DNA of 40,414 nucleotides from Halobiforma nitratireducens JCM 10879 (GTDB lineage Archaea; Halobacteriota; Halobacteria; Halobacteriales; Natrialbaceae), in contig NZ_AOMA01000003.1 of NCBI RefSeq assembly GCF_000337895.1, forward strand, positions 64,786 through 105,199. The letters are read 5' to 3'. Shown piece after piece: positions 4,769 to 30,600 of the stretch. How positions within the stretch are numbered: the stretch's first letter is position 1; every line of letters starts with the position of its first letter. Made by a program: the position numbers and the translations under genes. Under the pieces are notes generated by a model. The model had not been told where the DNA came from. It saw nothing but the letters and a program-made list of their open reading frames with translations, and did no database searches.

Positions 4769-5728
4769 TCACTCCCTCGAGTTCGAGTACAGTCGGTTGA
4801 GGGACCCGAACTCCTCGCGAAGCGCCTGCCGCTTGACCAGCGCGAAGCCGGCAACGATGAAACCGAAGCCGACGACGGTCGTCGCGTCGACGACTTCACC
4901 CAGGTAGAGCCAGCCGACGATCGTCGCGAAGATCGGTGCGACGTACGAAACCATGTTGATCTCGACGGCACCGAGTCGATCCAGCAGGTCGAAGTAAAGC
5001 AAGAATCCGAGAGCGCTGGCGATCAGCGAGAGGTACGCGAGCGCACCGAGCGCCTCGGGGTGGGTCCAGGCCGACGGATCGATCGGTTCTCCCATCGCGA
5101 GGCTGATTCCGTGCATCACGAGCGCGCCGCCGATCATCGACCACGCCTCCATCGTCTCGATGGGGAGCGAGGCGTCGATACGGCGGGTCAGCACGCTCCC
5201 GAGCGCGAACGAGGCCGCAGCACAGAAGACGAGCAGTTTTGCGACGAAGTCCGTCGACAGCAGGTTCGACGGGTCTGGCTGGGAGATGATCGCGACGCCG
5301 ACCAGCCCGAGCAAGACGCCGACGATACCGATCAGCGAGAGCGCGTCCGACGGGACCAGTACCCGAGCGAACCCGGTCGTCAGGACGGGCGAGAGACTCA
5401 CCAGGATCGCCGCTGCCGCCGCCGTCGTATGCTGTTGGCCGACGAAGAGGAAGGCGTGATAGGCGGCGATCAACAACACGGCACCGACCGCGACGACCGC
5501 CCACTCCTCACGGCCTCGCGGGAGCCAGGCCCCGTCCTCGAGAACGGCGGCTGCGTACACGAGCATGATGACTCCCGCGATGTCGTACCGCAGCGCCGCG
5601 AACAGTACCGGCGGAAAGTGTTCGAGGCCGGCGCTGATCGCGACGAAGGCGGACCCCCAGAAAGCCGCAAGTGCCAGGAAAAGGACGAGATTCCGGTACC
5701 GACTCACACCGGTAGTCCCGGTCGACAT
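4769..5728 (-). CDS. DMT-superfamily transporter with two EamA domains
   Basis: The 319-residue polytopic membrane protein begins RYRNLVLFLALAAFWGSAF, a typical EamA first helix with the AxxWGSxF signature. It continues with about ten hydrophobic segments in two repeated halves (about 10-145 and 160-300). The second half contains YLSLIASALGFLLYFDLLDRLGA and PIFATIVGWLYLGE, characteristic of RhaT/YdcZ-like drug/metabolite exporters. It probably exports an amino acid, nucleoside or other small metabolite across the cytoplasmic membrane; the substrate cannot be read from sequence. The length is standard. It ends in a basic cytoplasmic tail. Confidence 0.9.
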   Translation of the reverse strand: MSTGTTGVSRYRNLVLFLALAAFWGSAFVAISAGLEHFPPVLFAALRYDIAGVIMLVYAAAVLEDGAWLPRGREEWAVVAVGAVLLIAAYHAFLFVGQQHTTAAAAAILVSLSPVLTTGFARVLVPSDALSLIGIVGVLLGLVGVAIISQPDPSNLLSTDFVAKLLVFCAAASFALGSVLTRRIDASLPIETMEAWSMIGGALVMHGISLAMGEPIDPSAWTHPEALGALAYLSLIASALGFLLYFDLLDRLGAVEINMVSYVAPIFATIVGWLYLGEVVDATTVVGFGFIVAGFALVKRQALREEFGSLNRLYSNSRE

Positions 5729-5816
5729 CTCCTATACGTTTCGATCAGTACGGAGCGTCGCCGCGACCGTCGAGCGAGACTCGCCTGTCGTGTCCGTCCG
5801 CGCCGTCGGGACCGCC

Positions 5817-6182
5817 CTAGAGCGTGGCCCGAGCCCGGAGCTCGGGGTCCTCTTCTGTCTGTCGGAACTGCTCGAGGAGGGGCTGGATATCGTCGAACCC
5901 GTCGGCGAGGACGATGTCGCCGCTGCGCAGGTCGTAGTCGACGATGTCGTAGTCGGCCAGCCGGGGGAGGTGGTTGTGTACGAGCGAAACGTACGTCCGC
6001 TGGCGCGTCTCGTCGTCGATTCGGTCGACGGGCACGTCGTGTTCCCAAGCGGCGACCTGTGTGACGACGTCCTCGATGTGGACGTTGTGGTCGTCCGCCA
6101 GTTGGTAGAGCACGTAGCGGCGCTTCGACTTCGCGAGAAGTGAACAGGCAGCCTCCATTCGGCTGTCGCTCGTTCGGTGCAT
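5817..6182 (-). CDS. DUF7344-type winged helix-turn-helix protein
   Basis: The 121-residue protein matches the haloarchaeal winged-helix domain described as DUF7344. It has a helix KSKRRYVLYQLADDH, then VAAWEHDVPVDRIDDETRQR and the recognition stretch VSLVHNHLPRLADYDIVDYD, followed by a beta wing (SGDIVLADG). Such proteins are presumed transcription regulators, usually without an identified ligand. The ATG at 6182 is supported by an AT-rich box (gtgtaatacc on the minus strand, 6204-6213) about 27 bases upstream, consistent with a leaderless mRNA. Its neighbours are a DMT exporter and the peptide ABC operon; whether it regulates either is not known. Confidence 0.8.
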   Translation of the reverse strand: MHRTSDSRMEAACSLLAKSKRRYVLYQLADDHNVHIEDVVTQVAAWEHDVPVDRIDDETRQRTYVSLVHNHLPRLADYDIVDYDLRSGDIVLADGFDDIQPLLEQFRQTEEDPELRARATL

Positions 6183-6203
6183 ACTGGTTCCAGGTTCCCG
6201 TGG

Positions 6204-6213
6204 GTATTACACC
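6204..6213 (-). promoter_or_regulatory. TATA-like box of the DUF7344 regulator gene
   Basis: On the minus strand the sequence reads gtgtaatacc, centred about 27 bases before the ATG at 6182. This is the spacing expected if the transcript starts at or next to the start codon, as is common in haloarchaea. Confidence 0.45.
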
Positions 6214-6270
6214 TGGTGCCAATACAGATTGGGTTTCTCGCCTATCGTCTTTCTTTTCGAAACGAGGGTG

Positions 6271-6313
6271 AAAAATAGAACGACGGTCGCTCTCCGGGGG
6301 GAATCGGCCCCCG
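6271..6313 (-). terminator. Probable terminator of the peptide ABC operon
   Basis: Directly after the stop codon of the last ATPase gene there is a 6-bp GC stem (cgggggccgattcccccg on the minus strand, 6295-6313 with a 7-base loop). About 20 bases further on comes ctatttttcacc, with five consecutive T residues. Hairpin plus T-run at an operon end is suggestive; archaeal termination depends mainly on the T-run. Confidence 0.45.
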
Positions 6314-7771
6314 CTATCGGGAGTCCGACTCGGGAGCGCGATGCCCTGACTCGGCGAAGAGGTGGCAGGCGACGGGGTGGTCCTCGTCGGCGCTCGAGCC
6401 GTCGCTCGTGCTCGAGGGTCCGGCTTTCTCCATCCCCGTGCCTGTCCCTGTGCCTGTTCCTGCTCCTGCCCTCGTCTCCGTCCCCGTCCCGGAAAGGGGC
6501 GGGTTCTGTCTCTCACACACAGTCTCGTACTCGTCCCGGAGCCGTTCTGCGGCGGCCTCCCAGTCGGACGCCGCAAGCTCCGCCAGCGCCTCTTCGACGA
6601 TCGCGTCGTCTCTCGCGGGGAGGTCCCGGTCGAGCACTCGCTCTTTGAGCGTCGCGACGAACTCCGATCGGTCACCGACGGCCAACCGACCGTCTTCGAA
6701 CTCGAACTGGCCGTCCTCGCCGACCGTCTCGAGCGAGATATCCCGCCCTTCGATCCGTTCACGGAGGTCCATGATCGCACGGAACGCCGCCCGATCGATG
6801 TCGATGTCCTCGGGCGGGATCACCTTCGGACACCGTGTCCGGAATCGACAGCCGCTCGGCGGGTCTCGTGGGGACGGCACGTCCCCCGACAGCGTCTCGA
6901 TCTCGCGATCCTGTTCGTCCGTCGAAGCCCGGGGGACGCTCTCGAGTAGCGCCTCCGTGTAGGGGTGTTTCGGGTCCTCGAAGACGTCGGCAGCGGGCCC
7001 GATCTCGACGATCTCGCCCAGGTACATTACGGCGACCCGATCGCAGATGTGGCGGATCACCGAGAGGTCGTGACTGATAAGCAGGTACGTCAGGTCGAAC
7101 TCCGCCTGCAGGTCGTCGAGGAGGTTGAGAACCTGCGCCTGGACGGAGACATCGAGCGCGCTCGTGGGCTCGTCCAAGACCAGAAACTCCGGATCGAGGG
7201 CGAGCGCTCTCGCGATGCCGATGCGCTGGCGCTGGCCCCCCGAGAACTCGTGTGGATACCGATCCAGCTGCTCGACCGAGAGGCCGACTCGCTCGAGGAG
7301 CTCCCGAACCCGACGTTCGCGCTCCTGTTCGGTCCCGACATCGTGGACGGCGAGTGGCTGCTGGACGATCTCCCCGATCGTCATCCGGGGGTCGAGACTC
7401 GAGAACGGGTCCTGGAAGACGACCTGTGCGTCCCTCCGGAACTCCGTGAGATCGCTTCCCTCGAGGTCGTAGACGTTCTGTCCGTCGAACTCGACCCGGC
7501 CGGCAGTCGGCTCCTGCAGGCGAAGCAGCGTCTCACCGGTCGTCGACTTGCCACAGCCGGACTCGCCGACGAGACCGAGCGTCTCGCCCTCCTGAATGTC
7601 GAAGCTGACGCCGTCGACCGCACGAACGGCGACGGGGTCGTCCCCGAGCAGCCGATCGACAAGCGAGTTGTTCTCCCAGAAGTACTTCTCGAGGCCGTCG
7701 ACGCGAACGAGTGGCTGCCCGTCGGCGGGGGCGTCGCCAGCGCCAGCCGTGTCGGGTGTCTCGGTACTCAC
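6314..7771 (-). CDS. dppF: Peptide ABC transporter ATP-binding protein (DppF/OppF type)
   Basis: This is the second ATPase of a dipeptide/oligopeptide importer and hydrolyses ATP at the cytoplasmic face of the two permeases. Walker [10 protein letters not shown] is at 69-77, signature FSGGQRQR at 176-183, Walker B FLVLDE at 196-201 and the H-loop LLISHD follows. The C-terminal oligopeptide extension starts with CRFRTRCPK, and the usual closing CHLF appears only after an insert of about 130 residues typical of haloarchaeal members. That insert ends in a low-complexity Gly-Thr tract ([19 protein letters not shown]) encoded by short degenerate DNA repeats near 6430-6495. At 485 residues it is longer than the roughly 330 of bacterial DppF. 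The start is GTG, whose GTGA overlaps the upstream gene's TGA. Confidence 0.93.
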
Positions 7772-16014: not shown

Positions 16015-16674
16015 CTACTCGAGAGTCGCGACGATCTCCGGTACCGCCGTCGCCACCTCGCGCTGGTCGACGTGAGCGACCGCCCGCTGGTCGGACTCGG
16101 GGCCGTCCTCGAGTAGCACCTGAACGACGGCCATCCCCGCGTTCGTCGCGCCGTAGACGTCCGCCTCGACATCGTCGCCGACGTAGACTGCCTCGGCGGG
16201 CGCGACGCCGAGTTCGGACGCGATCGCGTCGAACGCCCGCGGGTCGGGTTTGCCGGCCTCGAGTTCGCCCGTCACGAGCGCCGCGTCGAAGGCCTCTTCC
16301 CAGCCCAGCGTCTCGAGTTTGTCCCGCTGGGCGCGGACGGGGCCGTTGGTGAGCAGGCCGACGCGGTACTCCGTACGGAGGTCCGCCAGCATGGCTTCGA
16401 CACCGGGGAGGGGCTCGAGTGCATCCGCGATCGTCTCGCGGTAGGCTGTCGCGAGCGTCTCGGGATCGGCGTCGGTCACCCGGTCCTCGAGCAAGTCCGC
16501 GAAGATGGGCTCGCGACTCTCCCGAGTGAGGTTCCGACTGTGGGCCGCGAGGTACTCCTCGCGGGTCAGAGCGGGGGCGTCGGCAGCGTCGACTGCCTCC
16601 CGGAGAAGGGTTTCCCGGTCCCGCGTCGGCACCGCGAGCGTGTAATCGAGATCGAAGACGACCGCCCGTACCAT
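16015..16674 (-). CDS. HAD-superfamily hydrolase (phosphatase)
   Basis: The 219-residue soluble enzyme has all four HAD motifs: VVFDLDYTLAVP (motif I, nucleophile Asp and acid/base Asp), LLTNGP (motif II), AGKPDPRAF (motif III lysine) and YVGDDVEADVYGA (motif IV). A helical C1 cap lies between motifs I and II, as in phosphoglycolate phosphatase or haloacid dehalogenase-like proteins. It probably dephosphorylates a small phosphorylated metabolite in the cytosol; the substrate is not readable. The ATG at 16674 is preferred over a GTG three codons earlier because motif I follows directly. Confidence 0.9.
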   Translation of the reverse strand: MVRAVVFDLDYTLAVPTRDRETLLREAVDAADAPALTREEYLAAHSRNLTRESREPIFADLLEDRVTDADPETLATAYRETIADALEPLPGVEAMLADLRTEYRVGLLTNGPVRAQRDKLETLGWEEAFDAALVTGELEAGKPDPRAFDAIASELGVAPAEAVYVGDDVEADVYGATNAGMAVVQVLLEDGPESDQRAVAHVDQREVATAVPEIVATLE

Positions 16675-16874
16675 GGGAGTCACGGAGGACTCGAGGTGGT
16701 TGAAGCTATCCCTTCGCCCTCCGGACGGTCTGTTGGGCCGGACCGCTCGAGTCTACTCGACTCTACGGCGCTTCTCCGGCATGTCGGCGGTGTGTTCTCA
16801 GCTTTCACCAGGGCTGGAACCGAACGGTTTCTTTCGGTACCGTTAATTCCCGTGAACAGGTCAGTCACTACCGA

Positions 16875-18635
16875 ATGGTTACGGAGGTAGCACTCACCGT
16901 CGATCTCGCCGTTATTATTCTCAGCGCGACGCTTGCCGGATTCGTCGCCAAACGGACCGGCCAGCCGACGATCATCGCCTACATCCTCGCAGGGGTGGTG
17001 ATCGGCCCGGCCGCCCTAGAAATCGTCGAGACCAGCGCTCTCACCGAGTTGCTCTCGGAGCTGGGACTCGCGTTCCTGCTTTTCTTGCTCGGGATCAAGA
17101 TGCGCCTCGACGAGGTGCGTCACGTTCTCTCACCGATCGTCAAGATTTCGATCCCGCAGATGCTCGCGGTCTTTTTGGCCGGGATGGGCGTCGCGCTGGC
17201 ATTACCCCCGTTCGGGCTCCTCGAGTCGTTCCTGATCGGGCTCGCGGTGATGTACAGCTCGACAGCCGTGGTCATCAAGATGTTGAACGACAAGGACGAG
17301 GCGACGTCGCTACACGGAAAGATCGACGTCGGTGTGCTCCTCGTCCAGGACATCGTGGTCGTCATCATCCTGGCGGTGCTCGCGGCTGGCCGACCGGATG
17401 ACCTGGCCGAGGTCGCGACGACGCTGGCGGTCGTTCTCGTGCTCGTCGCGATCATCACGGTCGCGGCGATCGGTGCCTCCCGATCGGTGTTGCCGACGGT
17501 CTTCCGCCGCATCGCCGACAACAAAGACGTGTTTTTCCTCGTCGCTATTTCCTGGGCGTTCCTGTTCGTCTTCGTCTCCGATAACATCAACCTCTTTCTG
17601 GAACCGTTCGGCATCACTGCGTACCTCTCGATCGAGATGGGGGCGTTCATGGCGGGTCTGGCTATCGCTCAGCTTCCCTACAGCAAGGAGCTCCAGGACC
17701 GAGTCAACCCGCTGACTGACCTGTTCGTCATGGTGTTTTTCGTCTCGGTCGCGCTCGATCTGGAGGCTGCAGAGTTGCTTGCCCACTGGGAGGCGGCGAT
17801 CATCGCCGCGCTCGTGTTGATGCCGGTGAAGTTCCTCGTGTTCTTCTTCCTGCTGGACTGGCAGGGCTTCGACTCCGAGACGACGTTCCTCGGGTCGATC
17901 AACATGATCCAGGTCAGTGAGTTCGGGATCATCGTCATGGCCGTCGCGGCCGACGGCGACTTCGTCGGGGACGAAGTGCTCGGCTTCATGACCTTGCTTG
18001 CGATCTTCACGATGGCCGTCTCGGTGTACTTCGTCGAGTTCAACCACGCGCTGTACGACCGGTTCGAGCCGACGATCGACCGGTGGACCGGCGACGGCGG
18101 TTTCGAGGGCGGCAAGCATGAGTATCGGGACCACGCCGTCGTCATCGGGTACGACGACGTGACGAAAAACGTCCTCCCGCTGCTTGCCGACCGGTACGAA
18201 GACGTCGTCGTCGTCGACCGAACCGTCAGTCACATCGAAACCGTCGAGCAGGAAGGGTACGACGCGATCTACGGTGACTTCCGGAATTCGACTATCCGGA
18301 AGGACGCGGCCGTCAAGAAGGCCGACTTCGTCCTCTCCTCGTCGGTCCAGCCGGTGGTGAACAACGCCTTGCTCCGGGAGGTAAACGACGATGCGACGGT
18401 CTTCGTCGAAGCCGAACGAGTCGATCACGCGCGCGATCTCTACGCGAACGGTGCTCACTGTGTCATCATGACTCCACACCTCGCAGCAGACAGACTCGCG
18501 GACTATCTTCGGGCGTACCTCGAGGACGAAGACGACGCCCTGGTGGAAGCGTTCGACAACGACATCGAACTACTCGAGAAGCCGGACCCGATCCCGTCCG
18601 ACCGGGACCGCCTCGGAGGTGGGCTCGATGACTGA
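16875..18635 (+). CDS. CPA2 cation/proton antiporter with degenerate RCK domain (subunit A)
   Basis: The 586-residue membrane protein belongs to the KefB/KefC-like branch of CPA2. A twelve-helix antiporter domain (about 1-395) contains GQPTIIAYILAG, GLAFLLFLLGIKMR, the crossover helix SSTAVVIKMLNDKDE and a QD ion-binding pair at 158-159. A TrkA-N/RCK Rossmann domain (about 418-570) follows, but its glycine loop reads GYDDVT (425-430) instead of GxGxxG, so nucleotide binding may be lost. The ATG at 16875 follows an AT-rich gttaatt box by about 30 bases. The stop overlaps the next gene's start by 8 bases, so the two are translationally coupled. It probably exchanges K+ or Na+ for H+; the ion is not known. 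Confidence 0.92.
   Translation: MVTEVALTVDLAVIILSATLAGFVAKRTGQPTIIAYILAGVVIGPAALEIVETSALTELLSELGLAFLLFLLGIKMRLDEVRHVLSPIVKISIPQMLAVFLAGMGVALALPPFGLLESFLIGLAVMYSSTAVVIKMLNDKDEATSLHGKIDVGVLLVQDIVVVIILAVLAAGRPDDLAEVATTLAVVLVLVAIITVAAIGASRSVLPTVFRRIADNKDVFFLVAISWAFLFVFVSDNINLFLEPFGITAYLSIEMGAFMAGLAIAQLPYSKELQDRVNPLTDLFVMVFFVSVALDLEAAELLAHWEAAIIAALVLMPVKFLVFFFLLDWQGFDSETTFLGSINMIQVSEFGIIVMAVAADGDFVGDEVLGFMTLLAIFTMAVSVYFVEFNHALYDRFEPTIDRWTGDGGFEGGKHEYRDHAVVIGYDDVTKNVLPLLADRYEDVVVVDRTVSHIETVEQEGYDAIYGDFRNSTIRKDAAVKKADFVLSSSVQPVVNNALLREVNDDATVFVEAERVDHARDLYANGAHCVIMTPHLAADRLADYLRAYLEDEDDALVEAFDNDIELLEKPDPIPSDRDRLGGGLDD
18615..18621 (+). promoter_or_regulatory. Shine-Dalgarno site fixing the start of antiporter subunit B
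   Basis: The sequence ggaggtg ends 6 bases before the ATG at 18628, inside the 3' end of subunit A. It supports 18628 rather than the in-frame GTG at 18619 as the start of the downstream gene. This is an internal operon gene, where haloarchaea do use Shine-Dalgarno sites. Confidence 0.7.
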
Positions 18636-20325
18636 CCTGCTTACGGCGGTCGCGATCATCTTCCTCGTCGCGGGGCCGTTCCTGCTCGTAGCGAACCGGT
18701 TCGATCTCCCGACGGTGCCGTTTCTGGTCCTCGCGGGGATCGTCGCCGGAGGGTTCATCGATGACACGGACCTCCTGCTCGAGCTCGCGTACTACGGCAT
18801 CGCGCTGTTAGTGTTTACCTTCGGTACCCGGATCGACCTGTCGGGCGTCAGAGCGGTGCTCGCCGACGGTGAGCTCGCGGCACTCGGCCAAATTCTGGTC
18901 GTCGGGTCGCTCGGTGTCGGGTTCGGCATCGTCCTCGGCGTCCCACCGATGGAAGCAGTCTACCTTGGGATCGCGGCTGCACTCTCGTCGACGATCGTCG
19001 GAACCGCCTTGTTGGAACGCACCGTCAACTCCGATCCCGTTCGCGGCCGACTCGTCCGATCGATCCAGTTCGTTCAGGACCTGCTTGCCATCCTCTTTAT
19101 CCTGCTTCTGGGAGCGGGCTCGCTCGAAGTTGGCTACGTGGGACCAGCACTCGCCAGCGGAGTGGCGTTGCTGTTGGCTGCTCTCCTCGCCAACCGATAC
19201 CTGTTCGACATCATCGGCCAGTTGGCTGGTGACTCGGACGAACTCATGATTCTGGGAGTCGTCGCGTTGCTCACAGTGTTCGTCGGTGCGGCCGAGTTCG
19301 CCGGTGTCCCGATCGTCGTCGGCGCGTTTGCCGCCGGGCTCGCCGTCCGGTACGATCCCGTCGACTACCTCGGGCTGTTCAACGGCCTCCAGTCGATCAG
19401 GGACTTCTTCGTCGCCATCTTCTTCGTCACGATTGGCGCGCTCGTCGTCTTCCCGTTCGTCGGCGACATCGGGTGGGCCGAATCCGTCGAGAAACTGGTG
19501 CTTGTTGCCGGTCTCGTCGTCTTAACCGCGGTCGTGAAACCCGCTATCACCACGGCGATCCTCGTTGCCCGCGGCTACGAGGCCCGTTCGGCGACGCTCG
19601 CCAGTCTCCACACCGACCAGGTCAGCGAGTTCGCGCTGATCATCGCGATCCAGGCCTACATGCTCGACGCGGTGAGTCCGGCGATATTCGATGCGATCAT
19701 CCTCGCGGCCGCGATAACGATGGTGACCTCGAGTCTGACCCACCGGTACGACGAGCAAATCTACCGCACGCTCGCCGACCGTGGCGTAATCACCGGCCGC
19801 CACGACCGGGTCGACGCGTGGAGCGACGTACCCGCGGACCTCACCGATCACGTTATCATCGTCGGCTACGGTCGACAGGGACGAACCCTCGTCGAGGCCT
19901 GCGAAGAGATGGATCATCCCTACGTGGTCATCGAGAACGACCCTGCCCGACGGGAGGAGATCGCCAGGGAGTGCGAGGCCATCGTCGTCGGCGACGCCAT
20001 GGAAACTTACACCTGGGAGAAAGCGAACGTCGACGACGCCAAACTCGTCGTCTCGACGGTCAACTCCCAGCCCGTCTCGCGGCGTGTCCTCTCGCTTGAT
20101 ACCGACGCCGAGGTGACGCTGCGAGCGGCCGATCGGGCGACAGCCCTGGAACTGCTCGACGCTGGCGCGCTGTACGTCGGTCAGCCCGACCTGCTCGCAG
20201 GCCAGCAGTTGGCTCGACAGGTTCGCGAACTACTCGAGGGCGACCTGACTCGCGAGCAGCTCCGGGAACAGCAGCAGGATGAACTCGAGCGCCGGGCAGA
20301 TTACATCCCGCTTCACCTCCGATAG
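18628..20325 (+). CDS. CPA2 cation/proton antiporter with intact RCK domain (subunit B)
   Basis: The 565-residue CPA2 protein has an antiporter domain at about 1-375. It contains LPTVPFLVLAGIVAGG, LSSTIVGTALLERTV and a QD pair at 150-151 (QFVQDLLAI), plus the second-half motif FVAIFFVTIGALV and TDQVSEFALIIAIQ. Its RCK domain has the complete glycine motif GYGRQG (413-418) followed by an acidic strand end (YVVIENDP), consistent with NAD(H) binding. It differs from subunit A in lacking the GQPTIIAY opening. It is probably the nucleotide-sensing partner of A in one complex. Confidence 0.92.
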   Translation: MTDLLTAVAIIFLVAGPFLLVANRFDLPTVPFLVLAGIVAGGFIDDTDLLLELAYYGIALLVFTFGTRIDLSGVRAVLADGELAALGQILVVGSLGVGFGIVLGVPPMEAVYLGIAAALSSTIVGTALLERTVNSDPVRGRLVRSIQFVQDLLAILFILLLGAGSLEVGYVGPALASGVALLLAALLANRYLFDIIGQLAGDSDELMILGVVALLTVFVGAAEFAGVPIVVGAFAAGLAVRYDPVDYLGLFNGLQSIRDFFVAIFFVTIGALVVFPFVGDIGWAESVEKLVLVAGLVVLTAVVKPAITTAILVARGYEARSATLASLHTDQVSEFALIIAIQAYMLDAVSPAIFDAIILAAAITMVTSSLTHRYDEQIYRTLADRGVITGRHDRVDAWSDVPADLTDHVIIVGYGRQGRTLVEACEEMDHPYVVIENDPARREEIARECEAIVVGDAMETYTWEKANVDDAKLVVSTVNSQPVSRRVLSLDTDAEVTLRAADRATALELLDAGALYVGQPDLLAGQQLARQVRELLEGDLTREQLREQQQDELERRADYIPLHLR

Positions 20326-20406
20326 CCCGTCCGGAGCAGGTGTGCAACGCTTCGGTTGCTGGGGCAAAGCACCACGCCTTTGGTCGCGGTTTCGATACAT
20401 ACCACC

Positions 20407-20601
20407 GTGTTCGAGGCAACTCAGGCACTCCGGATCGGCCGGAACCTGCTCGTCTACGCCGTAGGCGTCGGGTTGTTCGTCGTCGGCGCGCTCGGAATGG
20501 CCGACGCGATCGATCTGTCGACGACTATGGCCATTCCGCTTTTCGTCGCCGGCCTGGCTCTCGTGGTAATCGTCCACGAGTACTTCGGTGGCCCCGTATG
20601 A
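20407..20601 (+). CDS. Small two-helix membrane protein after the antiporter pair
   Basis: The 64-residue protein starts at GTG (20407) with FEATQALRIGRNLLVYAVGV and has two hydrophobic helices (about 14-30 and 41-57), ending HEYFGGPV. It lies 81 bases after subunit B in the same direction and could be an accessory subunit, but no family is recognised. Longer upstream in-frame starts run back into sequence that is not protein-like. The start is uncertain. Confidence 0.5.
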   Translation: MFEATQALRIGRNLLVYAVGVGLFVVGALGMADAIDLSTTMAIPLFVAGLALVVIVHEYFGGPV

Positions 20602-20737
20602 GACGGAACTGATACTTCCGGACAAAACAATGCACACACCGATCGCACTCGAGACGCCGTCGCCTTCCGCGACGCACTCGAGACGCGATCGGGTGTGTCC
20701 TGCCTGGTGTCCAGTAGTATGAGTTACCTGAACTGTA

Positions 20738-22453
20738 TCAGACCCGCTCGTCCCGCGTCGCGAACCCGTACCGCTCGAGCGCCTGGAAGTACTCCCGTTG
20801 CTCGCGCTCGAGCGTCTCGGGGTCCGTCTTCCCCGCGGCGAGGGCGTCGACGATACCGATCAGTTGCTCGCCCGCGAGGACGTTCGGGACGGCGACGTGG
20901 GTCGCACCTGCCTCGAGCAACTCGCCGGCATCCTCGGCCGATTCGGACCGACAGATGATGTCGGCGTCGGTCGATAGCTCGAGGATGGTCTCCGACACCG
21001 GTCGATGGTCGACGGTCGAGCAAATCAGCGCTGCGTCCGATATCTGGGCTTTCGACCACGGATAGGTCGACACCGCATCGCCGAGTACGTAGTTGCGACA
21101 CTCGGCGTCGAGTTCGTCCCACAGCACCGGATCGTTCTCGAGGACGACGTAGGGGTGGTCGCGTTCCTCGAGTTGCTCGACGACGCGGCGGCCGATCCGA
21201 CCGTAGCCGACCACGACGATGTGATCCGAGAGATCGGCGACGCTACTTCGGTCGTCGACTTTCCGGGTTCGCTGGCCGCGGAACAGTCGAGTGACGACGG
21301 TCTCGTAGACCCGATTCTCGATACGCCGGCCCAGGAACGTCAGCAGCATCGTCGCCGCAGCGGCGAGGATGATCGCGTCGAACATCGCGGGTGCGATCGT
21401 CTGGGGCTCCATCAGGAGGCCCTGAATCGCGATGATCAGCGCGAACTCGCTGACCTGGTTCAGACTCGAGCCCGCCAGAAACGCCGTCCGGGCGTCGTAC
21501 CCCTCGTAGATAAACGAGAGGACGTGGACGAGCGGGTTCAGGACGAGCACGAGCGCGGTAAGTGTGACCGCGATGAGCAGGACCTGTGCGGATGGGAGCG
21601 CGACCAGTGCCCCGACAGTCACGAAGAAGATGGCGACGAAGAAGTCCGTGATCGAGTCGATCCCGTTCTGGACCTCCAGGGCCTGCGTGCCGTCGCTCCG
21701 GATGGCGACGCCCGCGGCGAACGCGCCGACGACGATCGAGAGGCCGACGTATTCGGCGGCCGCGATGAACGTGATCAGGATCGAGATCGCGCCCACGAGC
21801 ACGAGTTCGCCGTCGCCGTCGGCCAGCCGCACCAGAATCGGGAAGCCGTGCCGGTAGAGTACCAGGCCGGCGACGACGAACAGGACACCGTAGCCGATCT
21901 GGGCCGCGATCGCGTCGGCCGTAACGACCTCCGTACTGAGGATCAGCAACAGCGCGATCGCGATCAAATCGTCGAAGAAGTGAACCGACGACGCCAGCCG
22001 GCCGTGAACGAGGTTCTCGCGAATCTCCGAGCCAAGCACCACGCCGCCAACCAGCGAGGAACTCAACACGACGGCCGCGCTGAAATAGACCGCGTTGCGG
22101 ATCTGCTGGTCGAACCCGAACAGTTCCCCGAAGGCGTAGCCCACGGCGAACGCGATCGGCGCGACGACGATCAACTGGGTGAACGCCGCGACCTCGGCGT
22201 CACGAAGGACCGACTCGAGATCGCCGAAGTCGATCCGGATAGCGAAGACGAACACTAGGAAGGCGATCCCCCACTGGGCGAGGGTGATGATCTCCCCCTG
22301 GGTAACTGTCTCGAACCTACCCGCGACCAGCCCCGCGATGATGTAAAACGGGATCGGCGAGAGCTCGAAGTGGTTCGCGATCAGCGATAGGACACCGGCA
22401 CTGACGAAGACGATCGCCAGCGTGACGACCAGTTGCTCAGCCACGGTACTCAC
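20738..22453 (-). CDS. CPA2 cation/proton antiporter with intact RCK domain (subunit B')
   Basis: The 571-residue protein is a paralogue of subunit B: SPIPFYIIAGLVAGR, WGIAFLVFVFAIRIDF, LSSSLVGGVVLGSEI, FVAIFFVTVGALVALP and NQVSEFALIIAIQG. Its RCK domain has GYGRIG at 416-421. Unlike the other three antiporters here, its ion-site pair is DD (FFDDLIAI, Asp161-Asp162) rather than QD, a feature associated with electrogenic CPA2 exchangers. The start is GTG at 22453, overlapping the upstream partner's stop by 17 bases. Upstream in-frame codons are the antisense of the partner's Gly/Asp tail and were rejected. It ends convergent with the plus-strand antiporter operon. Confidence 0.92.
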   Translation of the reverse strand: MSTVAEQLVVTLAIVFVSAGVLSLIANHFELSPIPFYIIAGLVAGRFETVTQGEIITLAQWGIAFLVFVFAIRIDFGDLESVLRDAEVAAFTQLIVVAPIAFAVGYAFGELFGFDQQIRNAVYFSAAVVLSSSLVGGVVLGSEIRENLVHGRLASSVHFFDDLIAIALLLILSTEVVTADAIAAQIGYGVLFVVAGLVLYRHGFPILVRLADGDGELVLVGAISILITFIAAAEYVGLSIVVGAFAAGVAIRSDGTQALEVQNGIDSITDFFVAIFFVTVGALVALPSAQVLLIAVTLTALVLVLNPLVHVLSFIYEGYDARTAFLAGSSLNQVSEFALIIAIQGLLMEPQTIAPAMFDAIILAAAATMLLTFLGRRIENRVYETVVTRLFRGQRTRKVDDRSSVADLSDHIVVVGYGRIGRRVVEQLEERDHPYVVLENDPVLWDELDAECRNYVLGDAVSTYPWSKAQISDAALICSTVDHRPVSETILELSTDADIICRSESAEDAGELLEAGATHVAVPNVLAGEQLIGIVDALAAGKTDPETLEREQREYFQALERYGFATRDERV

Positions 22454-24260
22454 CCCCTGCGTTCGAATCCGTCCCGTCACCAGTACCGGCGTCGGAATTC
22501 GCAGTATCGTCCCCTCCGGCATCGCGATCCGGGCCGCCATCACCTTCGCGCTCTCCCTGCTCGAGCCGTTCGGCGGCGCGTTGGCGTCGCGCTTCGATCC
22601 CCTCGATATCGCGTGCGATCGCGGCGTCGAACGCCGCCCGATCGGAGACGTACTGTTCGACGTACTCGCTCAACTTCTCGGCTGCGAGATGGGTGTTCAT
22701 GATGACGTAGGTCGCGCCACGGTCGTACAGCGCCCGAGCGTCGGCGATCCGCTCGGCCTCGAGGAACACCGTCGCGTCCTCGTCGACCTCCCCGAGCAGC
22801 GCCTCGTTGACCTCTCGCTCGACGCTCGAACTCAGTACGAAGTCGGCCGCCTTCAGGCTCGCCTCCTTGCGAACCTCGGTGTGGCGGAAGTCGCCGAAGA
22901 CGTAGTCGTACCGGCCTTCCTGCTCGAGTTCCTCGATATGGTCAGTCCGACGGTCGATGATGACCACGTCACCGAACTCCTCCTCGAGTCGCGGCAAGGC
23001 GCGTTCGGTGATCTCGTCGTAGCCGATCGCGATGGCGTGGCCGTCGTAGGTGCTGATCTCGGCGTCTTTCCTCTCGTCGGACTCGAACCGCTGGAACCAG
23101 GGCTCGAGGTGTGCGTAGATCGCGTGGTTGTACGAGATGATGTACGTCGAGACGCTCATGGTCAGCAGGGCCATCAGACTCAGATAGCCCAGCACGTCCG
23201 ATCCGATCAGCTCCTGTTCGATCGCGAGCGCGCCGACGATCAGCGAGAACTCGCTGACCTGGACCATGTTGATCGAGGCGAGGAAGGAGGTCTCGACGTC
23301 GAACCCCTCGCGGTCGATCAGATAGAACATGATCCAGAAGTTCCCGATCATGAGGACGATCGAGGCGACGATCGCCTCCCACCAGTGGGCCAGCAGACTC
23401 GAGAGTCCCTCGATCTGGAGGCCGATAGTGGCGAAGAACACGAGGATAAAGAAGTCAGTGATCGGGGTGATGCGGTCCTCGAGTTCCTTGCTGTATGGGA
23501 GTTGGGCGATGCTCAGGCCCGCGAGGAACGCTCCGACTTTCGGATCGAGGTCTGCACCCTCGGCGATGGCGACGAAGAGGAACGCCCAGGCGATGGCGAC
23601 GACGAGGAAGATGTCCTTGTTGTCCGCGATGCGCCGGAAGAGTCCGGGGAGCACGTACCGCGAGGAAAACAGCGAGAAGAGGGCGATAAATGACATCATC
23701 ACGAGGATGACCCCGAGCGTCGACGCGATGTCGGCCGCCCCGCCGAGTTCGTCGGTCGCGAACAGCGCGAGAACGACGACGAGATAGATGTCCTGAACGA
23801 TGAGGACGCCGACGTCGATCTTCCCTGGCAGCGACGTGATCTCGTCTTTGTCGGTGAGGATCTTGACGATGATCGGCGTCGCGCCGAAGACGGTCGCCAG
23901 CGCGATCACCAGGATTTCGTTGGTGCCAAACCCGAGTGCCCATGCGACGGTGAACGCAAGCGCCGTCTGGAGGACCGTCTGGCCGATGGCGACGTTGGTC
24001 ACGGCCGGCAGAATCTCACGGATGTCTTCGAAGCGCATCTTCAGGCCCAGTAGGAACAGCAGGAAGGCGAAGCCGAGATTGCCCATCAACTCGACCAGCC
24101 CCTCGTCGGTCACGATATCGAACGCGACGGGCCCGAGGATGATTCCCGTAAGAATGTAGGCGATGATCGTCGGCTGGCCCGTCTGGCGGGCGATCAACCC
24201 GATGACAGTTGCCACGACGACGATGATCGCGAAATCGGCCGCGAGGGCGATTTCACTCAT
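22437..24260 (-). CDS. CPA2 cation/proton antiporter with degenerate RCK domain (subunit A')
   Basis: The 607-residue protein is a paralogue of subunit A, sharing GQPTIIAYIL, GFAFLLFLLGLKMRFED, LTDKDEITSLPGKIDVGVL and the QD pair (156-157), IAQLPYSKELEDR and NMVQVSEFSLIVGA. The RCK glycine loop is GYDEIT (413-418), degenerate in the same way as subunit A. The C-terminus is a hydrophilic Asp/Gly/Asn-rich tail of about 55 residues. It is the first gene of the B'-A' operon on the minus strand, and the ATG at 24260 lies about 27 bases from an inverted repeat that overlaps the expected TATA position. Confidence 0.92.
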   Translation of the reverse strand: MSEIALAADFAIIVVVATVIGLIARQTGQPTIIAYILTGIILGPVAFDIVTDEGLVELMGNLGFAFLLFLLGLKMRFEDIREILPAVTNVAIGQTVLQTALAFTVAWALGFGTNEILVIALATVFGATPIIVKILTDKDEITSLPGKIDVGVLIVQDIYLVVVLALFATDELGGAADIASTLGVILVMMSFIALFSLFSSRYVLPGLFRRIADNKDIFLVVAIAWAFLFVAIAEGADLDPKVGAFLAGLSIAQLPYSKELEDRITPITDFFILVFFATIGLQIEGLSSLLAHWWEAIVASIVLMIGNFWIMFYLIDREGFDVETSFLASINMVQVSEFSLIVGALAIEQELIGSDVLGYLSLMALLTMSVSTYIISYNHAIYAHLEPWFQRFESDERKDAEISTYDGHAIAIGYDEITERALPRLEEEFGDVVIIDRRTDHIEELEQEGRYDYVFGDFRHTEVRKEASLKAADFVLSSSVEREVNEALLGEVDEDATVFLEAERIADARALYDRGATYVIMNTHLAAEKLSEYVEQYVSDRAAFDAAIARDIEGIEARRQRAAERLEQGEREGDGGPDRDAGGDDTANSDAGTGDGTDSNAGGEYRG

Positions 24261-24828: not shown

Positions 24829-25197
24829 CTACTCCTGGAGCCCCTCGATCAGAAACTCGGCCGACTCGAGGTTCGTCGCCAGCGCAGTGTCGTGAACGTC
24901 ACAGATGCGCAAGAGCGCGGAGATGTCGGGCTCGTGGGGCTGGGCACGGAGCGGATCACGGAGGAAGACGATCCCGTCTAGCCGGCCTTCGGCAACCTCG
25001 GAGCCGATCATCAGGTCCCCGCCCAGCGGACCGGATTCCTTGCGCTCGACGTCGAGGTCGGTCTCCTCGAGCAGCCGCTTCCCGGTGGTGCCGGTCGCGA
25101 TTAGCTCGTACTCCTGGAGCTGTGGTTCGTGATCCTGGGCGAACTCGACGAGGTCTGCCTTCTTCTCGTCGTGAGCGATGAGTGCGACGCGAGTCAT
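24829..25197 (-). CDS. mgsA: Methylglyoxal synthase
   Basis: MgsA converts dihydroxyacetone phosphate to methylglyoxal and phosphate, a bypass of lower glycolysis under phosphate limitation. The 122-residue protein matches the short MgsA family: RVALIAHDEKK at the start, TGTTGKRLLEET (phosphate-binding loop), SGPLGGDLMIG with the catalytic Asp at 61, and FLRDPLRAQPHEPD with the conserved Asp81 and His88. The ATG at 25197 begins the conserved N-terminus; the longer upstream frame crosses the divergent gene. It lies head-to-head with a glyoxalase-fold protein, 99 bases away. Confidence 0.93.
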   Translation of the reverse strand: MTRVALIAHDEKKADLVEFAQDHEPQLQEYELIATGTTGKRLLEETDLDVERKESGPLGGDLMIGSEVAEGRLDGIVFLRDPLRAQPHEPDISALLRICDVHDTALATNLESAEFLIEGLQE

Positions 25198-25296: not shown

Positions 25297-25746
25297 ATGA
25301 CGACCCACGACCGCGACTGCGACCGTGACCGCCACGCCAGCGCCCACCACGTCGGGATCACCGTCAGCGACCTCGAGACCGTCCTTCCGTTCTACCGCGA
25401 TACGCTCGGTCTCGAGGTCGTCGATCGCTTCGAGGTCGGCGGCGAGGCGTTCTCCGAAGCGGTCGCCGTCGACGGCGCGAGCGCGCGCTTCGCTCACCTC
25501 GCGGCCGACGGTGCACGGATCGAACTCGTCGAGTACGACCCCGAGGCACGCGGGTCGCCGGCTGCGGGGCTCAACCAGCCCGGCGCGGTCCACGTCGGTC
25601 TCTCGGTCGCCGATCTCGAGTCGTTCTACGCCGACCTTCCTGACGATGTCCGGACGATAAGCGAGCCTCGGACGACCGAAAGCGGGACGACGATCTGCTT
25701 TCTTCGTGATCCCGAGGACAATCTGGTCGAGTTGCTCGAGGGGTGA
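25297..25746 (+). CDS. VOC-family (glyoxalase/dioxygenase-fold) protein
   Basis: The 149-residue protein has two beta-alpha-beta-beta-beta units: HHVGITVSDLETVLPFYRDT at about 16-35 and VHVGLSVADLESFYADLP at about 98-115. Candidate metal ligands are a His at the start of each unit, a Glu in IELVEY, and a Glu in NLVELLEG. The arrangement is that of single-subunit glyoxalase I or methylmalonyl-CoA epimerase-like VOC proteins. Because it is divergent from methylglyoxal synthase, a role in removing methylglyoxal is attractive but remains inference. The N-terminus is rich in Asp, Arg and His (DRDCDRDRHASAHH). Confidence 0.82.
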   Translation: MTTHDRDCDRDRHASAHHVGITVSDLETVLPFYRDTLGLEVVDRFEVGGEAFSEAVAVDGASARFAHLAADGARIELVEYDPEARGSPAAGLNQPGAVHVGLSVADLESFYADLPDDVRTISEPRTTESGTTICFLRDPEDNLVELLEG

Positions 25747-29369: not shown

Positions 29370-30491
29370 TCAGGTTCCGGTGTCCTTCTCGTAGGGAGAC
29401 TCCCGGTAGAAGAAGTTCGGCGTCTTCACCGTGTCGTCGTACTCGTTGTGGAAGACGTGGGTCGTCGCCGAAGACATCGGCGGGAGAAGCCAGGATCGGT
29501 CCCCGGTCACCTCCCGTCCGGCGTCCTCCTCGCGGCGTTCGAACGCCTCGAACTGCTCGGCGGCCGTGTGGTGGTCGACGATCTTCACGCCGTCGCGCTC
29601 GAAGGAGTGCAACACCGCCCGGTTCAGCGCGACCAGGGCCTCGTCTTTCCACAGCGCCCGGTTGTCGGTCGTCTCCAGCCCGAGCCGCTCGGCGACCGCG
29701 GGCAGCATGTCGTACCGGTCCTCGTCGGCGAAGTTCCGCGCCGCGATTTCGGTCGCCATATACCAGCCGTTGAACGGTGCGGCCGTATACTGGAGCCCGC
29801 CGATCTCGAGGCGCATGTTCGAGACGACCGGCACGCCATACCACTGCAGTCCGAGATCGGCGACCCAGTCGTACTCGGGGTGTTCGATCGGAACCTCGAG
29901 GACGAGGTCCTCGGGTACCTCGAACAGTTCCGGCTCTCGATCCTCCATCTGGATCACCCACGGCAATACGTCGAACTCGGTCTCCTCGCTTTCCCACCCG
30001 CGAGACTGGCAGTACTCGGTGAACTCGACCTCTGCGGGATCGCCGACGATGCCGTCGTCGGTCTCATAACCGGCGTACCTGATCAGCTGGTGGTTCCAGA
30101 GCCGTACCTGCCGGCGGCCGCGGATCATCGGTTCGAAGAGCGTGATCGTCGGCCGGATGTCGCCGCCGTTGGTCGCCTGCTCGAGGTGGCCACAGAGCGC
30201 GTCGTAGACGCCCTCGGCGGTGTCCCGATCGCGGGCGTCGATCACGTCCAGTGTCTCCCAGAACAGCCGTCCGATACAGCGGTTGCTGTTGCGCCAGGCC
30301 AGTTTCGCGCCGTACTCGAGTTCTGCGGGCGTGTGTTCGTAGTGGCCGGACTCGGCAATCGATCGACGGACCTCGGTGAGCCGATCCTCGATCTCGTCGT
30401 CTCGTCCGAGCTCGCTGTAACACTGCCGGACGAACGCCTCGGCCTCGGCATACAGCTCCGTCGGCTCGTACTCCGGCACGGGCGCGTGCAT
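29370..30491 (-). CDS. nos: Nitric oxide synthase oxygenase
   Basis: This heme-thiolate enzyme oxidises L-arginine to citrulline and NO. The 373-residue protein matches bacterial-type NOS oxygenase in length. AWRNSNRCIGRLFW carries the axial heme Cys72, FNGWYMATEIAARN carries the substrate-binding Glu248, and ATTHVFHNEY near the C-terminus belongs to the pterin side of the fold. There is no N-terminal zinc-binding Cys pair, no calmodulin site and no reductase domain, so electrons must come from a separate reductase that is not encoded nearby. The ATG at 30491 was chosen over a 28-codon extension because a TATA-like box lies about 26 bases upstream. Confidence 0.95.
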   Translation of the reverse strand: MHAPVPEYEPTELYAEAEAFVRQCYSELGRDDEIEDRLTEVRRSIAESGHYEHTPAELEYGAKLAWRNSNRCIGRLFWETLDVIDARDRDTAEGVYDALCGHLEQATNGGDIRPTITLFEPMIRGRRQVRLWNHQLIRYAGYETDDGIVGDPAEVEFTEYCQSRGWESEETEFDVLPWVIQMEDREPELFEVPEDLVLEVPIEHPEYDWVADLGLQWYGVPVVSNMRLEIGGLQYTAAPFNGWYMATEIAARNFADEDRYDMLPAVAERLGLETTDNRALWKDEALVALNRAVLHSFERDGVKIVDHHTAAEQFEAFERREEDAGREVTGDRSWLLPPMSSATTHVFHNEYDDTVKTPNFFYRESPYEKDTGT

Positions 30492-30511
30492 GGTCGGACC
30501 GCAGGACTGTG

Positions 30512-30521
30512 TCAGTATAGG
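30512..30521 (-). promoter_or_regulatory. TATA-like box of the nitric oxide synthase gene
   Basis: On the minus strand ccctatactg is centred about 26 bases before the ATG at 30491. This indicates that the gene has its own promoter despite following two small genes in the same direction. Confidence 0.5.
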
Positions 30522-30600
30522 GGCGTTGGTACGGGCATCGAACCCGGCCGTCGCCTCCTGCGGACGGCGGAGCACTTTGACCCCTCGCTCGTGAACCGGG

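Follow-up and report, generated by a model that had tools for sequence, protein, structure and literature searches.

A conserved two-gene variant of the KefC-type antiporter in haloarchaea, with apparently complementary loss of features between its genes

The whole stretch of DNA considered here (hereafter the window) comprises 40,414 nucleotides of the haloarchaeon Halobiforma nitratireducens JCM 10879 (assembly GCF_000337895.1, contig NZ_AOMA01000003.1, positions 64,786 to 105,199), and holds four genes for antiporters of the CPA2 family, arranged tail to tail as two convergent operons: A followed by B on the forward strand, and their paralogues A' followed by B' on the reverse strand. Judged from their sequences and those of their relatives, such pairs appear to be a conserved two-gene variant of the KefC-type antiporter, in which the features lost from one gene are complementary to those lost from the other. 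The features of the two operons, in window positions, are:

16875-18635, forward: gene A, a CPA2 transporter with an RCK domain (586 amino acids), with a QD ion motif and a degenerate nucleotide loop, GYDDVT
18138-18470, forward: TrkA_N (RCK) domain of A (Pfam match, residues 422-532), GxGxxG lost
18628-20325, forward: gene B, a CPA2 transporter with an RCK domain, with a QD ion motif and an intact GYGRQG loop
18628-18635, forward: overlap of genes A and B, 8 nucleotides, ATGACTGA
19852-20178, forward: TrkA_N (RCK) domain of B (Pfam match, residues 412-520 of translation P0002), GxGxxG kept
20738-22444, reverse: gene B', paralogue of B, with a DD ion motif, N at the position of KefC K307 and an intact GYGRIG loop
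22437-22444, reverse: overlap of genes A' and B', 8 nucleotides, GTGGCTGA
22437-24260, reverse: gene A', paralogue of A (607 amino acids), with a QD ion motif, N at the K307 position and a degenerate loop, GYDEIT

An earlier note, made from the sequence alone, had described four CPA2 antiporters here, with one set of motifs shared by A and A' and another by B and B', in overlapping genes ordered A then B within convergent operons. All of this was borne out: the open reading frames agree in position and strand, every quoted motif is present in the translations, and both junctions overlap by 8 nucleotides. In each protein a sodium/proton exchanger domain is followed by an RCK domain, with Pfam scores for Na_H_Exchanger (PF00999; gathering score 26.2) of 180, 100, 109 and 170 bits in A, B, B' and A', and for TrkA_N of 48.9-63.1 bits in all four (cut-off 23.8). 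Scores against the NCBIfam model of the CPA2 subfamily, TIGR00932, were 146, 74, 68 and 163 bits in the same order, short of its cut-off of 238.3; by sequence, the four proteins seem related to this subfamily whilst lying outside its curated core. The equivalog cut-offs for KefB (804) and KefC (752) were likewise not reached, the best scores (139 and 137, respectively) both belonging to A. Equating A with A' and B with B' is justified by identities of 48% (A/A', 591 columns) and 42% (B/B', 566 columns), which far exceed those within operons (A/B 25%, A'/B' 28%).

Since the 8-nucleotide overlap occurs in both operons, translation of the two genes is probably coupled. The frame of B opens with a GTG at 18619, the ATG at 18628 being the likelier start; that of B' mechanically opens with a GTG at 22543, and its likely start, read from the A'/B' junction, is the GTG at 22444. 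The same overlap was counted in 78 of 98 pairs outside the window, by taking the possible B start nearest to the stop of A, a choice that favours short distances.

Whether A-type and B-type genes stand alone as often as together had been named in the earlier note as the observation on which the idea of a joint exchanger would fail. Three sets of sequence bear on it, and in all three the pairing survived, with no intact lone case. Firstly, with window A and B as queries and the best 11 or fewer candidates scored per genome, 116 genomes of the class gave matches above 330 bits to A (32) and to B (32). Both sets fall in one and the same group of 18 genomes and make up 32 pairs, all on one strand and always with A first; one A, in genome G054, is broken, and the only extra B, a 138-bit piece also in G054, represents two fragments of a broken gene. 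Secondly, among 392 genomes of the phylum, searched with profiles and the best three or fewer candidates per genome, 14 hold a genuine A (at least 828 bits) and the same 14 a genuine B (at least 620 bits), and none holds A alone or B alone; beyond these 14 the highest A-profile scores among those candidates were 328 and 318, and no B-profile score between 244 and 620 was found among the matches listed. Thirdly, 86 loci (70 from named records and 16 regions from genomes already surveyed, so that the sets partly overlap) hold 110 A-like and 109 B-like genes, which form 105 pairs with B directly downstream of A. Of the five unpaired A-like genes, three are truncated where a contig ends, and two (334 and 342 bits) encode single-gene proteins, taken to be from methanogens, that fall outside the A clade; of the four unpaired B-like genes, two are cut off where the locus stops and the others are the G054 fragments. 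None of the 105 pairs is fused into one gene. The scan behind the 70 loci used A patterns, so an A without B would have shown, and lone B genes were looked for in the class survey, the phylum B-profile survey and plasmid records.

A and B thus form a conserved unit: genuine genes of the two types were found apart only where a contig or locus ends or, in one case, as a broken B. Such tandem placement is more than chance would give, as a control indicates: when every PF00999 candidate was scored in the 18 pair-bearing genomes, 64 of the 126 matches were A or B genes, and none of the other 62 (sorted by hand) lay in same-strand tandem with another of the 62, two in G029 being divergent neighbours. 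Natrialba magadii (G032) holds four pairs; the part of its genome paper available describes a K+ efflux operon of nine genes and another three antiporter genes, with no mention of pairs (PMC3403918).

The residues of the two partners also differ. One hundred distinct pairs were aligned with Escherichia coli KefC, namely 98 of the 105 (six truncated pairs and one duplicate being dropped) and the two of the window, equivalent to about 36 A and 61 B sequences at 80% identity, and were read at the positions that the KefC structure paper, in the text available, assigns to K+ and adenosine monophosphate (AMP) binding (PMC11150392). At the ion site A is nearly invariant, with Q155 in 100, D156 in 99 and T127, S336 and E337 in all 100 sequences; in B the corresponding counts are 43, 100, 66, 89 and 91, the Q155 position being occupied by Q in 43, D in 36, E in 10, N in 10 and S in one. 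The QD motif is therefore found in 99 of 100 A proteins (the other has QN) and 43 of 100 B proteins; in the window A, B and A' carry QD, and B' carries DD. QD is given as the K+ motif of KefC, and DD as that of NapA type (PMC11150392, in part). By sequence, QD would fit K+, and the DD of B', which stands without the lysine of transmembrane helix 11 (TM11), would fit neither KefC nor NapA. That lysine, present in both KefC and NapA, is replaced by N in each partner of 34 of the 36 pairs with a DD-type B. The residue at the K307 position is the same in both partners in 88 of 100 pairs (45 K/K and 43 N/N, summed by hand), and a fixed rule coupling the ion sites within pairs was rejected, as the match extends to only these 88.

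The nucleotide loop shows the opposite bias. All three glycines of GxGxxG are present in 0 of 100 A proteins versus 89 of 100 B proteins, both window B proteins included; the second and third glycines are absent from every A (0 and 0) and present in 89 and 100 B proteins, respectively. Both phosphate-contacting arginines (KefC R409 and R496) occur in six A versus 82 B proteins. Neither A nor B commonly has the glutathione-contact residues of KefC: Q412, R498 and R516 were found in 3, 6 and 3 of 100 A proteins, and in 9, 17 and 0 of 100 B proteins. The replacements in A are themselves conserved (G408 to D in 92%, H430 to R in 93-95% and R496 to E in 87-90%, with D429 and D449 retained in 93%), which indicates a new constraint rather than decay. 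A is also better conserved overall than B, with a mean identity of 0.594 versus 0.499 in the membrane part, and 0.537 versus 0.485 in the RCK part. Read together, the residues suggest a complementary pattern in which A has kept the ion path and lost the sensor loop, and B has kept the loop and varied the ion path.

Among 26 single-gene antiporters examined, the loop was readable in 18 and GxGxxG intact in every one: these are KefC and YbaL, five A-like proteins (three from bacteria, two from methanogens), a further nine from the phylum and two haloarchaeal proteins (L169 and L178). The other eight comprise four with a universal stress protein (Usp) domain, two with only PF00999, and L181 and L182, which have no residues aligned at the loop. 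Three haloarchaeal single antiporters (L167, L170 and L173) carry the Usp domain where Kef proteins have RCK.

In a tree of the membrane domain, built with few outgroups and without two single-gene rows that were too short, A and B each form a clade (support 0.978 and 1.0). A joins five single-gene antiporters (support 1.0), those of the Rhodococcus, Martelella and Cereibacter plasmids and of two methanogens (G117 and G299), and this group then joins B (0.967), suggesting that A and B split before A split from these single-gene relatives. The five differ from A in having no adjoining B gene and an intact GxGxxG (5/5). Distances among A and among B proteins in the membrane part correlate at r 0.87, none of 2000 permutations reaching this value (highest 0.10), and 32 of 42 A splits with support of at least 0.95 recur in the B tree; with names permuted and B splits limited to support of at least 0.95, at most one A split recurs.

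AlphaFold monomer models of A (mean pLDDT 84.9, pTM 0.76) and B (90.7, 0.88) both match KefC best among solved structures, followed by NapA. The structure alignments drew on the window proteins and 48 of 60 non-redundant relatives. E. coli KefC (PDB 8bxg, 8by2 and 9emb) is also the top solved-sequence match of both; it shares the CPA2 fold and RCK domain, as well as the QD site kept by A and the GxGxxG (89/100) and phosphate-contacting arginines (82/100) kept by B. It differs in being a one-gene homodimer under glutathione and AMP control, in place of two diverged, paired genes of which A has no loop. The claim that these operons are unlike KefB and KefC therefore stands for the number of genes; it does not for fold and ion site, in which both proteins are KefC-like. 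Ranked by E-value, the leading NCBIfam model for both B and B', although short of its cut-off, is that of E. coli YbaL, a putative K+ efflux transporter. YbaL has a PF00999-type membrane part followed by RCK, and differs as a single gene with an ED motif and canonical loop. The Na+/H+ antiporter NapA of Thermus (PDB 4bwz and 5bz2) is alike in the fold of its transmembrane domain and shares the DD motif of B'. It differs in that its solved chains, of 384-394 residues, end before an RCK domain, and in the TM11 lysine, where B' has N. NapA is not known to carry an RCK domain; KhtTU and AmhMT are two-gene CPA2 systems with RCK regulation in which the partner is a soluble RCK-type protein, in contrast to the present pairs, where both partners are full transporters. 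No description of a two-subunit CPA2 system was found among the open-licence PubMed Central papers listed, at the level of titles and the openings of abstracts, nor any heterodimer terms in PMC2920069; a published haloarchaeal model names Kef-like antiporters, in the part of its text available, without subunit structure (PMC4230888).

How the two proteins work together is best considered against KefC, which is described as a homodimer; its RCK dimer, in the AMP-bound state, has been proposed to keep the transporter closed (PMC11150392, in part). From the gene anatomy, adjacency, co-inheritance, predicted fold and residue asymmetry observed, we infer a physical heteromer, its nucleotide, ion and direction of transport and the stress that it serves: each operon probably encodes, though with considerable room for doubt, an obligate CPA2-RCK exchanger of K+ (or Na+) for H+, a heteromer with one subunit from each gene. 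The earlier note had proposed A and B as a heteromeric exchanger; evidence that the note did not have, the one-sided loss of the nucleotide loop from the RCK domain of A, speaks for this possibility. A would provide the conserved transport core, with a KefC-type ion path and an RCK domain that would no longer bind nucleotide in the KefC way. B would contribute another ion path, less strictly conserved, together with an RCK domain still able to bind nucleotide. The two would pair through their dimerisation and RCK domains like two KefC protomers, and nucleotide on the RCK domain of B would lock or release the mixed RCK dimer. If A is indeed unable to bind AMP, the gate of each mixed dimer would be set by a single nucleotide, bound to B, and efflux of K+ (or Na+) in exchange for H+ might be gated in this way under alkaline, osmotic or electrophile stress.

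Several observations weigh against an obligate heteromer. The ion-binding aspartate, D156, is kept in both subunits (100/100 B, 99/100 A), so both may be complete exchangers and B may transport alone. Seven pairs of a third subtype have a changed loop and no E337 in B, and a partly different loop in A. The A gene at 4920-6584 of locus L133 is the only one of 100 with asparagine at D156, its partner B having aspartate. In locus L106 an A with the motifs of one type stands next to a B of a different type; exchange of partners may therefore occur now and then. The A gene of G054 is interrupted at residue 172 of the 555 that match, with B still open: there B has persisted without an intact A. As most loci came from a scan with A patterns, a B gene standing alone could have escaped notice anywhere but in the archaea and plasmids surveyed. 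Agreement of the A and B trees is weak evidence of contact, as linked genes are co-inherited in any case.

The foremost alternative, possible although clearly the less probable, is that A and B are two independent homodimeric antiporters of different ion preference (for instance, K+ for A and Na+ or another stoichiometry for B), co-expressed against the same stress. The shared aspartate is what would be expected, as is the difference in the residue beside it, which is always Q in A and varied in B; the available account of KefC also makes it homodimeric (PMC11150392). Independent antiporters should, however, occur separately at times, and the surveys hold no intact case. Nor would independence explain why A has lost its loop in 100 of 100 pairs when single-gene relatives keep it, and the replacement of the TM11 lysine by N in both partners of 34 of 36 DD pairs departs from a plain NapA-like site.

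An unlikely alternative is that the pair is selfish or mobile, its adjacency reflecting co-transfer on plasmids and between lineages without any joint machine. The five best plasmid matches to A' are all haloarchaeal and also hold B, in adjacent genes with an annotated overlap of 4 or 8 nucleotides, and pNMAG02 has a transposase and a TnpB gene close by; in the other four of the five annotated plasmid stretches, however, no transposase is listed near the pair. The spread is patchy (18 of 116 genomes), reaching two contigs labelled as nanohaloarchaeal (L135 and L136), yet the A'-B' type sits at a recurrent site with mgsA and pyrF in several genera, and mobility would leave the complementary loss of residues unexplained. 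Finally, it is very improbable that B has lost transport altogether and serves as a regulatory subunit clamping A, in the manner of the accessory KefF on KefC but with a transporter fold, for although its ion site is less constrained than that of A and nine of 100 B proteins are without E337, D156, whose loss would be expected of a dead subunit, is kept in all 100.

Within the favoured reading of a heteromeric exchanger, one doubtful elaboration, prompted by the conserved replacements in A, is that the RCK pocket of A has been repurposed as a conserved acidic sensor of a cation (Na+, K+, Ca2+ or Mg2+), with B as the nucleotide sensor. If true, the pair would act as a coincidence detector, a single heterodimer that links ionic state to the state of energy or of a second messenger, and would be the antiporter equivalent of channels in which the two RCK domains of a pair are unlike.

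The pairs are found beyond the genomes surveyed by class. The named isolates that bear them are mostly described as soda-lake haloalkaliphiles, exceptions including Halorientalis salina, Halobium salinum and Saliphagus. In Natronorubrum bangense, the chromosome (L118) and the plasmid unnamed1 (L130) hold the same pair and neighbours at identical offsets, reflecting either a large chromosome-plasmid duplication or an assembly artefact. Contigs of metagenome-assembled genomes labelled as Nanohaloarchaea, Thermoplasmata and three bacterial groups also bear pairs (L082, L084, L085, L095, L128, L135 and L136), through either gene transfer or misbinning; the GC contents of the nanohaloarchaeal-labelled contigs, 0.42 and 0.40 versus 0.64 for the Natrialbaceae locus L067, are low and so fit a nanohaloarchaeal origin.

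The surroundings of the four genes bear on how the tail-to-tail layout arose. The flanking genes concerned are:

16015-16683, reverse: HAD-family hydrolase gene, the recurrent far-side neighbour, beyond A
24829-25197, reverse: methylglyoxal synthase gene mgsA (MGS-like domain), on the same strand as A' and upstream of it
25324-25746, forward: glyoxalase/VOC-family gene, start uncertain, divergent from mgsA

The distance from mgsA to A' is 0.57 kb, and pyrF lies beyond the glyoxalase-family gene. Between mgsA and the HAD gene, N. bangense and three Natronococcus loci have one pair only, of the A'-B' type; other loci have the same gene order with A-B added. As the A'-B' type stands alone at this site elsewhere, A-B looks inserted beside an older B'-A', and the tail-to-tail layout, judged by sequence comparison, looks like the insertion of an anciently diverged pair. 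The pair types of A and A' recur in many genera. The earlier note had taken the layout to point to the duplication of a conserved unit, A-B; both the synteny and the recurrence of pair types across genera speak against this having happened locally, and local tandem duplication was rejected on these grounds. Among 81 loci with pairs, many of them cut off, the strands of successive pairs are +- in 14, +-- in four and ++ in two, with a single pair in view in 61; three pairs are found in four loci. The L133 locus has two pairs on one strand.

The mgsA neighbourhood may also offer a lead to function, because S-lactoylglutathione activates the KefGB efflux system of E. coli in methylglyoxal detoxification, as described in the available part of PMC3412212. 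Of the 90 pairs outside the window that could be evaluated, 12 have mgsA within 0.8 kb upstream of A on the same strand, and nine of these 12 carry the A'/B' ion motifs. The link was rejected as proof of a Kef-like role in electrophile defence and kept as a lead only: mgsA is present in 73 of 116 genomes, is common without pairs, and may mark one conserved locus. By manual comparison, in two genomes without pairs (G005 and G057) and one with pairs elsewhere (G045), a single PF00999 gene of about 420-450 amino acids lies 0.7-1.4 kb downstream of mgsA on the same strand. Five loci (G046:C1:1133578, G047:C1:1842217, G104:C22:19011, L125 and L134) have an additional antiporter of PF00999, the third there and unpaired, at about 0.7-1 kb downstream of B; where given, its frame measures 420-450 amino acids.

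Some other pairs adjoin genes for a universal stress protein, an MscS channel and a diadenylate cyclase, which suggests K+ and osmotic control. Pairs of another subtype (L187, L191, L192, L126 and L127) lie with diadenylate cyclase, MscS and universal stress genes, and some with genes for a TrkA C-terminal domain, suggesting an island devoted to cyclic di-AMP and osmotic stress. Near the antiporter cluster of the window itself lies a gene with a nitric oxide synthase oxygenase domain (PF02898, 562 bits; 29373-30575, reverse strand).

NapA and the other structurally known relatives work, as far as is known, as homodimers, and identical protomers make cooperation between protomers hard to test. 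In a naturally occurring pair whose ion sites have diverged, and of which one partner senses nucleotide, each protomer could be disabled by itself. The sequences of this pair from salt- and soda-lake archaea suggest one two-part machine where the known version is built from two identical parts and, if this is true, a two-subunit exchanger would be added to the alkaline and osmotic physiology of soda-lake archaea.

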